NCBI GenBank assembly: GCA_024508855.1
Contig: JANINJ010000025.1
Location: 1-51,998 of the forward strand
Length of the DNA stretch: 51,998 bases
Direction of reading: 5' to 3'
From: Xanthobacteraceae bacterium
GTDB lineage: Bacteria > Pseudomonadota > Alphaproteobacteria > Rhizobiales > Xanthobacteraceae
Every line of letters starts with the position of its first letter. Position 1 is the first letter of the stretch. The translations under genes were made by a program, and so were the position numbers. Below the pieces are notes generated by a model. That model searched no databases, was not told where the DNA came from, and saw only the letters and a list, made by a program, of their open reading frames with translations. Below are positions 47,268 to 49,605 of the stretch, in pieces.

Positions 47268-47765
47268 ATGGAAATCACGCGCATCGGCAAACACCTGATT
47301 GCGAACCGCTCCCGCGTCCGCAAGGCATTTCCGGACCCGGCGCTGCTCAATATCCAGCGCGCCATCAAGGCGAGCGAGGCGACGCACGCCGGCCAGATCC
47401 GCTTCGTGGTCGAAGGTGCGCTCGATGGCGTGCCGCTGTTCCGGGATCAGACCGCGCGGGCGCGGGCGCTGGATGTGTTCTCGCAATTGCGGATATGGGA
47501 CACCGCGCACAACAGCGGCGTGCTGATCTATCTGCTGCTCGCCGATCGCAAGGTCGAGATCGTCGCCGATCGCGGCATCAACGCAGCGGTGGGGCAGGCG
47601 ACGTGGGAAGACATCTGCGTCGCGATGGAGGCGGAGTTCAAGCAAGGCCATTTCGAGAGCGGCGTGCTGGCTGGCATCCGATCCGTCACGGACCATCTCG
47701 CGCGGCATTTTCCGCGTGGCGCTGGCAGCACTAACGAGCTGCCGGACAAGCCCGTGGTGTTGTAA
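47268..47765 (+). CDS. TPM-domain protein
   Basis: A 165-residue TPM-domain protein without a signal peptide. ITRIGKHLIANRSRVRKAFPDPALLNIQRAI precedes the core HAGQIRFVVEGALDG, and LIYLLLADRKVEIVADRGINAAVG is the family centre. The ATG at 47268 follows GGGGAGG by 9 bases and is 2 bases after the previous stop; the GTG codons before it overlap. It is coupled to the two genes upstream, giving a lemA-TPM-TPM operon, as in other alphaproteobacteria. Confidence 0.85.
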   Translation: MEITRIGKHLIANRSRVRKAFPDPALLNIQRAIKASEATHAGQIRFVVEGALDGVPLFRDQTARARALDVFSQLRIWDTAHNSGVLIYLLLADRKVEIVADRGINAAVGQATWEDICVAMEAEFKQGHFESGVLAGIRSVTDHLARHFPRGAGSTNELPDKPVVL

Positions 47766-47832
47766 GGCGCGAGTTAGGAAGCGGCGACGCTTCGCATTTA
47801 TCTTTGCGTATTACGTCACGCCACTCCCTGCC

Positions 47833-47869
47833 GTCGTCCCCGCGCAGGCGGGGACCCATAATCCCTGTG
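47833..47869 (+). repeat. Dispersed palindromic repeat, copy A
   Basis: A GTCGTCCCCGCGCAGGCGGGGACC-type core followed by CATAATCCCTGTG. The same 37 bases recur at 48767-48803, and the inverted form at 48859-48898. Confidence 0.85.
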
Positions 47870-47951
47870 TGAATGGTGATGGTGAGCGCTTCAACGACGC
47901 TTCACTCGCTCTGCATTCGCCACCGTGGAACGAGCGTCCTCTGCAACAATA

Positions 47952-47993
47952 GGCGACACGGAGTATGGGTCCCTGCCTTCGCAGGGACGACGG
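47952..47993 (-). repeat. Dispersed palindromic repeat, inverted diverged copy
   Basis: GGCGACACGGAGTATGGGTCC followed by CTGCCTTCGCAGGGACGACGG. It is the inverted relative of 48859-48898, with the arm sequences changed in a compensating way (GTCCCTGC/GCAGGGAC), so pairing is kept. Confidence 0.75.
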
Positions 47994-48028: not shown

Positions 48029-48115
48029 GTCATCACCGGGCTTGTCCCGGTGATCCACGTCCTTGCGATGCGACTGCGAAAAGACGTGGATGGCCGGGAC
48101 GAGCCCGGCCATGAC
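48029..48115. repeat. Large inverted repeat, 33-nt arms
   Basis: Bases 48029-48061 (GTCATCACCGGGCTTGTCCC onward, ending CCACGTC) are nearly the reverse complement of 48083-48115. The few changes are mostly transitions. The 21-nt spacer is TTGCGATGCG-like. This is a typical dispersed alphaproteobacterial intergenic palindrome and would form a long hairpin in RNA. Confidence 0.8.
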
Positions 48116-48163
48116 GGAGGTTGGTGTCGTGCGCGAGCGCTCGCACGCTTGTCCGAATTGCCG

Positions 48164-48192
48164 TTGACAAAACCCGTATATGGGTTTATATT
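48164..48192 (+). promoter_or_regulatory. Near-consensus sigma70 promoter with a palindrome in its spacer
   Basis: TTGACA at 48164-48169 and TATATT at 48187-48192 are 17 bp apart, a near-perfect promoter. The spacer is almost entirely AAACCC-GTATAT-GGGTTT (48170-48187), a perfect 6+6 dyad that would cover the promoter when bound. The dyad ends on the first base of the -10. No ORF with a credible ribosome site follows, but a structured non-coding stretch does. Confidence 0.7.
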
Positions 48193-48198
48193 CCTAGA

Positions 48199-48715
48199 TA
48201 TCCCGCCTCACTGAGAGGGGCGGCTCGCGATCGTCACGGTCTGCGGGGCGGGATGCGGTGGACGTGAGGTGGCGTTCGAGGGCCGGAGCGTGAAAAGCGC
48301 CCCGGATGACGACCGCGCCACCCACGGACGGCGGAAGGCGTGGATCGTCCCGGCGCAGTTGCCCTGCGCCAGATGAGGCCGGGCCGGCCGCTGCGATCGG
48401 GGTCTCCCCGCAAGGGAGGCCGGGTCGTGGCGGCGGCAAGCGCAAGCCCGGCAAACGGTGGAAACCCGGAGCGTTCACCGGGGGCGCCACGCGGATACGC
48501 CGTCACTCCTCACCGCGTGCGGAACGCCGGATGCGTCCGGTGCTTTCGTGGCGACTACACTCGTGTGCTTACTAACTTTGCACACGAAGCTGCGGACGGA
48601 TCGCGCGTCCGGCGTTCCGCGCGCCCTCTCAAGGAAGAGGGCGGGACGTTCATCGCAAAGCTCGGGCGCAATCGCGTCGCGAGATCGCGAAGATGTGCCT
48701 GCAATCACTGCCGCT
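48199..48715 (+). ncRNA. Candidate structured non-coding RNA
   Basis: About 450-500 nt downstream of a strong promoter with no believable protein. Perfect nested arms are visible. GCGGAACGCCGGA at 48519-48531 pairs with 48608-48620. Inside it CGTCCG (48534-48539) pairs with CGGACG (48593-48598). Inside that TCGTGTGC (48561-48568) pairs with GCACACGA (48580-48587). Further hairpins are GGCGCAG/CTGCGCC at 48352-48370 and CGCCCTCT/AGAGGGCG at 48622-48643. The 3' limit is not defined; no U-tract terminator was found. It could instead be a degenerate repeat element. Confidence 0.5.
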
Positions 48716-48766
48716 GTTTGACATTCGAATCCGAGAATTGACGCACGCCGTCACCGCACCACCAGC

Positions 48767-48803
48767 GTCGTCCCCGCGCAGGCGGGGACCCATAATCCCT
48801 GTG
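48767..48803 (+). repeat. Dispersed palindromic repeat, copy B
   Basis: Identical in 37 bases to copy A at 47833-47869 (core GTCGTCCCCGCGCAGG followed by CATAATCCCTGTG). Confidence 0.85.
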
Positions 48804-48858
48804 GTTATGAGTAAGGGAATGCTTGCTACCCAAGGTCACCACCGCTGCCCGCATCATC

Positions 48859-48898
48859 GGCGACACGGCGTATGGGTCCCCGCCTGCGCGGGGACGAC
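48859..48898 (-). repeat. Dispersed palindromic repeat, inverted copy
   Basis: GGCGACACGGCGTATGGGTC then CCCGCCTGCGCGGGGACGAC: the same GC arm pair as copies A and B but reading in the opposite orientation, making a facing pair with 48767-48803. Confidence 0.8.
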
Positions 48899-48927
48899 GG
48901 TGATTGTGTGGTGACACGCGTGCGTCT

Positions 48928-48993: not shown

Positions 48994-49605
48994 TTAAGCC
49001 TTCACCGACGGCCGTTCCGCGATGCGCTTGAACCACGCGGCGATGTTGTTGTTCGCCGCGTCCAGCGGCTGGCCGACTTGCTTGCCGAAATCGAGCCAGA
49101 CGTAGAGCATCATGTCGGCCAGCGTGAAGCGCGAGCCACAGATGAATTCCTTGCCCTGCATCTGCCCGTCGAGCCAGCGGAGGCGGTCGGCGGCGATTTT
49201 CTTCAGGCCGGGTGCGGCTTCCGGCACGCAGACGATGCGGTTCTGGAACAGCTTCAATCCTTCGGCGAAACGAAAGCCGTTGGTCAGGGGCTCGCAGATG
49301 TTGAGATCGATCCGCCGCGTCCACATCCGGCATTCGGCGCGCTCCTCGGCATTGCTTCCGATCAGCACCGGCGCAGGATGGGTTTCCTCGAGGTATTCGC
49401 AGATGACCAGAATCTCCGAAACATACTTGCCGTTGTCGAGTTCGAGCGCGGGCATCTGGCCGTGCGCATTACGCGCGAGATGCGCTTCCTGCCGGTTTTC
49501 ACCGGCCCTCAGATCGACGGTCTGTGTGGGAATGTTCAACCCCTTTTCGGCAATGAACATCCGGACCAGACGCGGGTTCGGACCGATCGAATCGTAAAGT
49601 TTCAT
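48994..49605 (-). CDS. Glutathione S-transferase family protein
   Basis: A 203-residue GST. The N-terminal thioredoxin-like domain includes MKLYDSIGPNPRLVRMFIAEKG and GQMPALELDNGKYVSEILVICEYLE, with the cis-Pro after Met (MPALEL) and the SE pair that binds glutathione. The C-terminal helical domain has GSRFTLADMMLYVWLDFG. The catalytic residue is likely Ser6 near the start (YDSIGPNP), an inference. Length is usual. It is single, flanked by repeats on one side and an unrelated divergent gene on the other. Confidence 0.88.
   Translation of the reverse strand: MKLYDSIGPNPRLVRMFIAEKGLNIPTQTVDLRAGENRQEAHLARNAHGQMPALELDNGKYVSEILVICEYLEETHPAPVLIGSNAEERAECRMWTRRIDLNICEPLTNGFRFAEGLKLFQNRIVCVPEAAPGLKKIAADRLRWLDGQMQGKEFICGSRFTLADMMLYVWLDFGKQVGQPLDAANNNIAAWFKRIAERPSVKA

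Follow-up and report, generated by a model that had tools for sequence, protein, structure and literature searches.

A dispersed multicopy family of predicted structured RNA genes with a self-complementary hairpin loop in bradyrhizobia and their relatives

The locus and its promoter

The window analysed here, the whole 51,998-nucleotide stretch from a Xanthobacteraceae bacterium (contig JANINJ010000025.1, forward strand), has no called gene between positions 47765 and 48994 according to a codon-usage gene finder written for this analysis. The nearest called genes end at 47765 and begin at 48994, the downstream one being convergent. On both strands the stretch contains open frames 77 to 133 codons long, as does other high-GC DNA. 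The earlier note on this DNA had described it as lacking a credible protein, and had named a conserved reading frame among homologues as one finding that would overturn its interpretation; we found no coding-like frame inside any of 122 full-length copies of the element described below (five of these being second fetches of another locus), which bears the claim out. The element of the window copy lies on the forward strand and spans 48164–48734. Of the extent given previously (48164–48715), the start stands but the end does not, as the element reaches through a boxA-like tail at 48713–48734. Its flanks appear by eye to consist of intergenic repeats: paired repeats (CGTCGTCCCCGCG...GGGGACCCATA / TATGGGTCCC...GGGACGACG) occur on both sides, at about 47832–47993 and 48766–48899, and a further repeat (CATCACCGGGCTTGTCCCGGTGATCC) at about 48030–48115.

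The element opens with a sigma70-type promoter read in the sequence (48164–48192, forward strand), in which a 17-nt spacer separates a −35 box TTGACA (48164 to 48169 inclusive) from a −10 box TATATT (48187–48192), in agreement with the near-consensus promoter noted before; transcription of the window copy would start near 48199. Across the family, TTGAC occurred at −45 to −25 in 66 of 142 copies, whereas four control windows of the same size placed further upstream had it in 0, 1, 1, and 1 of 142. As for a sigma70-dependent noncoding RNA gene, the −35 and −10 boxes in these 66/142 copies are conserved at a fixed distance from the 5' helix, and the spacer sequence between them varies among copies.

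A perfect AAACCC-GTATAT-GGGTTT dyad lies in the promoter spacer of the window copy (48170–48187) and had been interpreted as an internal operator. The dyad is present, but it is nearly private to this copy and has no family-wide conservation: AAACCC-N6-GGGTTT with up to three mismatches was found in 2 of 66 class-A promoters, namely the window copy and a loose match in L048, and it was rejected as a family operator. When any sequence was allowed, perfect dyads with arms of 6 bp occurred in 6/66 class-A promoters, compared with 1.9 in shuffles. Another dyad, AGGA-N6-TCCT, which mostly covers the −10 box, was present in 45 of the 66 when one mismatch was tolerated (0.85 in shuffles). In many Bradyrhizobium copies, an upstream region AAAAATATT...CCCAAATCA stands by eye in place of TTGACA and could be assigned to no recognised sigma factor or regulator; L059, L060, L064, L082, and other Bradyrhizobium copies have in common a promoter-like AAAAATATTyCGCTT...CCCAAATCA at about −55 to −10.

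Family size and distribution

Sequence comparison places 48164–48734 in a dispersed, multicopy family of putative structured noncoding RNA genes, each about 500 nucleotides long. The impression that similar stretches recur in Bradyrhizobium-type genomes proved correct: BLASTN gave 16 matches in the window's own genome and matches in 13 of 41 genomes (own genome counted), and an exact-pattern search of named genomes returned at least 120 stretches. That pattern fixes the CGCGATCGTCACG loop and part of helices P1 and P2, and its loci were left out of the palindrome and P1 counts given below. Among the 80 titled matches listed, 43 were from Bradyrhizobium, 9 from Afipia, 14 from alphaproteobacterial MAGs, 9 from Hyphomicrobiales MAGs, and 5 from others (two from a Candidatus Acidiferrales MAG and one each from Rhodopseudomonas, Tardiphaga, and Xanthobacteraceae). 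The two matches in the MAG labelled Candidatus Acidiferrales (L064, L128) perhaps lie on misbinned alphaproteobacterial contigs.

A model of the 3' domain built from 32 copies (R1) matched 86 of 198 genomes of the host family, in 20 of 46 genera. Being absent by this model from the other 112/198 family genomes, the RNA appears dispensable over evolution. In the closed genome G146 the model matched 21 places, 20 scoring at least 89 bits and one scoring 43, and in G057 it matched 23; at most 18 candidates per genome were scored in the family scan, so its copy numbers are lower bounds. In a draw of 297 genomes from the order, scored at up to 12 candidates each, 12 genomes matched, of which 11 belong to the same family and one (G328) to another. 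The latter holds a single divergent copy (L260) with the palindrome TCCGGA.

The 5' and 3' ends are conserved among copies, with a variable middle. Copies were located at contig ends in several draft genomes and, given these positions, probably break genome assemblies. Only the 3' end of the element, comprising the CCCTC hairpin and the CTCGGGCG stem, was seen in two further genera (L018 and L021, around 1500–1600), close before apparent gene starts.

No family match was detected on plasmids, nor on viral contigs scanned with one exact pattern. The earlier note had named Rfam as a check; with Rfam 15, no family matched the whole window at gathering thresholds, and permissive searches (E up to 5 for 48100–48800, E up to 1 for five further loci) gave only sub-threshold matches to unrelated families, with OLE, ROOL, and GOLLD not among them. 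In the part of the literature available for searching, no description of the family was found. The RNA family thus appears to be undescribed and unannotated, and is wider than the earlier note had supposed.

Predicted fold, palindromic loop, and boxA-like tail

The predicted fold of 48199–48740 had a free energy of −308 kcal/mol, compared with −257.7 (sd 6.4) for shuffled sequences (z −7.9; 0/100 as good). Multilayered pairing had been proposed for this stretch; its strength is upheld, but in place of the proposed 13+6+8 bp nest, comparative data favour a somewhat different fold, comprising helices P1 to P5 together with a GGCG/CGUC hairpin and, on P3, two apical hairpins. P1 pairs 48200–48209 with 48245–48254, and 5 of its 10 pairs changed on both sides among 56 copies, with 86.5% of cells paired in an alignment that kept only copies with at least 6/9 complementary P1 positions and in which some rows lie one column out. 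Inside P1, a hairpin (48219–48235) with strands GGCG and CGTC holds a loop of about nine nt (GCTCGCGAT in the window copy) with the palindrome TCGCGA at 48225–48230, identified from loop reads and 5' covariation as a candidate self-dimerisation loop. P2 pairs 48255–48261 (GCGGTGG) with 48510–48516 (RNAalifold, 100 copies), and by eye its arms read GCGGTTG and AACCGC in L249, and GCGATGG and CCATTGC in the G146 copies. It closes a middle domain (48262–48509) that differs in length among copies and falls into several sequence types.

The 3' domain (48517–48622) comprises P3 (48517–48528 with 48611–48622) and its apical hairpins (48562–48568/48580–48586 and 48594–48598/48606–48610), and is supported by covariation. 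It is followed by P4, a GCCCTCT/AGAGGGC hairpin at 48623–48642 supported by folding and comparison, and by P5, a CTCGGGCGC...GCGTCGCGAG hairpin at 48661–48683 recognised by comparison. In the G023 copies (L049–L054) and the Afipia copies (L081, L102), a tail CCGCGCCG...AACAACAGGGGCGATG was observed after the last hairpin instead of the CTCGGGCGC stem.

Covariation, which the earlier note had suggested as a check and whose absence it would have taken as a refutation, was strong in both domains. In the 3' domain, 98.9% of cells were paired and 77 double-change cells were counted, compared with 23.3 (sd 5.8) in shuffles (0/500 as high); L010 and L135 had been dropped before this alignment. The 5' domain, aligned for 56 copies retrieved with the 3'-domain model, had 61 double-change cells compared with 18.4 (sd 6.5; 0/500 shuffles), and on two weaker measures the observed value was reached in 6 and 16 of 500 shuffles. 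Fourteen loci (including three artefacts) and identical rows had been dropped beforehand, and the 56 copies were preselected for P1 complementarity of at least 6/9 and for the GGCG/CGUC strands, so that the pairing percentages of P1 and of this stem are partly selected. The palindrome was unselected; its columns 37/41 were CG 33 times and GC 18 times, and columns 38/39 AU 26, GC 25, and CG 3 times.

We newly describe here a 5'-domain hairpin loop that, as read across copies, holds a palindrome changing in sequence yet staying self-complementary. Nine hexamer cores were found among copies retrieved with the 3'-domain model: TCGCGA, TGGCCA, TGCGCA, TCATGA, TGATCA, CTGCAG, TCCGGA, TCTAGA, and CTCGAG. 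Of 125 loci scanned, 78 were matched by a palindrome-blind regular expression demanding GGGGCG (one substitution allowed), CGTC, the P2 arm, and at least 6/9 complementary P1 positions, and 75 were left after removal of three artefacts (L244, L266, L277). Of these readable copies, 70/75 held a perfect palindrome 6 nt or longer, and the other 5/75 one of only 4 nt. Many of the 75 are near-identical paralogues within one genome, and at least four (L214, L216, L220, L222) had already been found through similarity searches. The count of distinct loops is therefore the fairer one: 21 of 24 were palindromic over at least 6 nt, whereas 20,000 shuffles averaged 2.2 and never exceeded 9. Among the loci that the expression did not match, seven could be read by eye, and five of them carried a palindrome (TGCGCA at two G063 loci, CGCGCG in G054 and G145, and ATCGCGAT in G057), the two of G092 being ambiguous. 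No 5' domain was visible by eye in L225, and the remaining unmatched loci were on the wrong strand or cut.

The palindrome stays self-complementary while it changes, and adjacent bases cannot pair within one chain; the RNA therefore probably homodimerises via this loop. A partner elsewhere in the same chain is possible for the TCGCGA class, whose hexamer recurred between 30 nt before the hairpin and the end of P3 in 5/25 copies; the window copy itself has two further TCGCGA sites around P5 and the tail (48677–48682 and 48685–48690). Such a partner is unlikely for the other palindrome classes, with recurrence over the same span in 1/45 copies. Over about 700 nt including the tail, the hexamer was unique in 12 of 16 readable copies picked for variant loops, and L224, L254, L260, and L275 each had one extra occurrence 520–720 nt downstream. 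A single genome can also contain two palindrome classes (G146 has TCGCGA and TGGCCA, G099 has TCATGA and TGATCA), which would make sorted populations of RNA dimers possible within one cell.

The boxA-like tail of the window copy (GCTGTTTGACATTCGAATCCGA, 48713–48734, forward strand) has an 11-nt core, GCTGTTTGACA, that is identical to the rrn leader of its own genome. The motif is taken to be a boxA by its resemblance to the E. coli boxA sequence. The family consensus is GGCTGTTTGAAAAT.GAATC. When sought as GGCTGTTTGANA with at most two mismatches and no more than 260 nt from where P3 ends, the tail was found in 51/109 copies (44 with at most one mismatch), compared with 2/101 further downstream, 2/101 upstream, and 2/109 on the other strand; 58/109 copies had none within 260 nt. 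Second fetches (L104, L107, L125, L150, L152, L162) were dropped from the tail, promoter, and flank counts, and five of them remain among the 122 full-length copies. A stricter tail pattern, which in the own genome matched only two copies and missed the rrn leader, and an earlier expression (7/13) are both superseded. The tail core was found in all eight rrn leaders read from seven genomes, the own-genome leader being GGCTGTTTGACAAGTGAAG and the seven others having GGCTGTTTGACAAGT in common. In some copies, other repeats intervene between the RNA and the tail. The tail usually ends in GAATC, a GANTC site, the type methylated by CcrM.

A probable self-assembling RNA and rival explanations

Two readings offered in the earlier note, a structured RNA and a repeat family with its own promoter, are both supported by the multicopy occurrence, the promoter boxes, the covariation, and the lack of a coding-like frame and of an Rfam match. 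Considered with the helices, the covarying palindrome, the enrichment of the tail, and the lack of orientation bias among neighbouring genes, these features are best explained, and we think probably so, by a dispersed multicopy gene family of a large structured, self-associating RNA with its own promoters. Each copy would be transcribed from its own promoter into an RNA with a 5' domain (P1 and the palindromic hairpin loop), a variable middle closed by P2, a conserved 3' domain (P3–P5), and often a boxA-like tail. We infer that this RNA is untranslated and acts in trans, and that two molecules join via the palindromic loop; it would most likely work as a homodimer or as a larger assembly of like molecules. 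NusB-S10 would bind the nascent chain at the boxA-like tail, as it does at the rRNA leader. A bolder proposal, which we rate at slightly less than even odds, is that the family forms a new class of large RNA that occupies many chromosomal places and self-assembles by a kissing loop with an often-exchanged palindrome, such that one cell could hold sorted dimers made under rRNA-like antitermination.

To our knowledge, few large structured bacterial RNAs have been described and their tasks are mostly open; the present family is multicopy across bradyrhizobia and their relatives, among them laboratory strains that are easy to grow, and the palindrome signature opens RNA self-assembly to direct tests. 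By analogy with OLE, ROOL, and GOLLD, likewise large structured bacterial RNAs, the likeliest task of the oligomer would be that of a scaffold or ribonucleoprotein core. In the available part of PMC12286853, symmetric kissing loops of OLE and GOLLD with loop switching between palindromes are read as intermolecular pairing, the OLE tetranucleotide GGCC changes to GAUC or AGCU, and the argument that adjacent nucleotides cannot pair is applied to OLE L9.3 and GOLLD L21a. At the level of sequence, our family shows a signature of this kind, which may point to homo-oligomerisation via palindromic loops. However, the family differs from these RNAs in sequence and fold, with no covariance-model match in Rfam 15, and it reaches 21–23 copies per genome, carries the boxA-like tail, and was absent from viral contigs in the one exact-pattern scan. 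In the retroviral dimerisation initiation site, too, a hairpin loop about nine nt long contains a six-nt palindrome; the pairing principle is alike, and no common descent is suggested. The GCTGTTTGACA core is the same in the window tail and the own-genome rRNA operon leader, but boxA precedes the RNA it serves there, whereas the motif follows the structured RNA here, and no further similarity to rrn leaders was noticed by eye. Repeats and small RNAs have been described in Bradyrhizobium, the lineage of the present family. The Br-REP1 and Br-REP2 consensus sequences printed in the accessible part of PMC5082802 are unlike the window element. For four of the BjsR sRNAs the same part gives 2 to 4 imperfect copies, and by sequence the present family may still correspond to one of the BjsR RNAs.

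The main rival, which is compatible with the RNA reading but which we consider unlikely as the explanation, is that the family is a non-autonomous, selfish mobile element that relies on an enzyme encoded elsewhere to move its structured transcript or its DNA. Copies are multiple, intergenic, and inconsistently oriented, which are the criteria for mobile or repeat candidates in the part of PMC11109978 available to us. The family is also lineage-specific, copy numbers range from 0 to 23, and at the window locus 5/7 congeners, read by eye, retain the pair of neighbouring genes, separated by a short gap that lacks the element (the neighbour differs in G005, and for G006 the opposite side was read). 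Against mobility, copies contain no coding-like frame, several stand at orthologous places in different species, and promoter boxes, helices, and palindrome have been maintained. RVT_1 was not found by search in 13/20 carrier genomes, including G160, G173, and G204, which disfavours mobility by reverse transcriptase, as a genome-encoded enzyme of this kind is seemingly unneeded. Element-free neighbour pairs exist, but the intergenic regions are too variable to place the element ends, and none of the loci compared offered a clean empty site with a target duplication.

Exchange between copies was considered as well. Among members of orthologous sets that also have a paralogue, the middle was nearer to the own-genome paralogue in 7/11 (L013, L014, L023, L034, L036, L042, L047) and nearer to the orthologue in 4/11 (L002, L015, L026, L032), a hint that is only suggestive of gene conversion or concerted evolution. 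Ectopic recombination seemed indicated by 2/37 right-flank pairs with a common left flank and was dropped on longer flanks, where synteny returned within a few kilobases in three sets (L015/L034/L036, L002/L042, and L026/L032); the comparison of L014 with L023 stops where the G002 contig ends.

It is improbable that the palindrome works as DNA, as the site of a dimeric protein, with the RNA incidental. Palindromes are typical of protein sites and a second conserved dyad covers the −10 box, but nine hexamer cores would need nine specificities, and the palindrome sits within a covarying helix, in the loop of a GGCG/CGUC hairpin that is fully paired, a pairing largely fixed by the regular expression. 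The attenuator-like element proposed earlier is not supported either. In favour of a cis-acting role as leader or attenuator for the gene downstream are copies such as L006 and L041, which precede the same co-directional gene in two species. However, among the 101 copies with a downstream gene called, same-strand genes (48) did not outnumber opposite-strand ones (53), so that the upstream, co-directional placement of a riboswitch or attenuator is not the rule, and the gene downstream of the window copy is convergent; on this orientation evidence we rejected a cis role, which is very improbable. The neighbours' lack of orientation bias, together with the lack of a coding-like frame in full copies, makes a protein, leader, or attenuator unlikely. 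A protein-coding or decayed coding repeat, for which the 77 to 133 codon frames on both strands might speak, has a negligible chance of being correct given the 122 full copies without a coding-like frame, a middle that varies in length, and compensatory changes that track the RNA helices.
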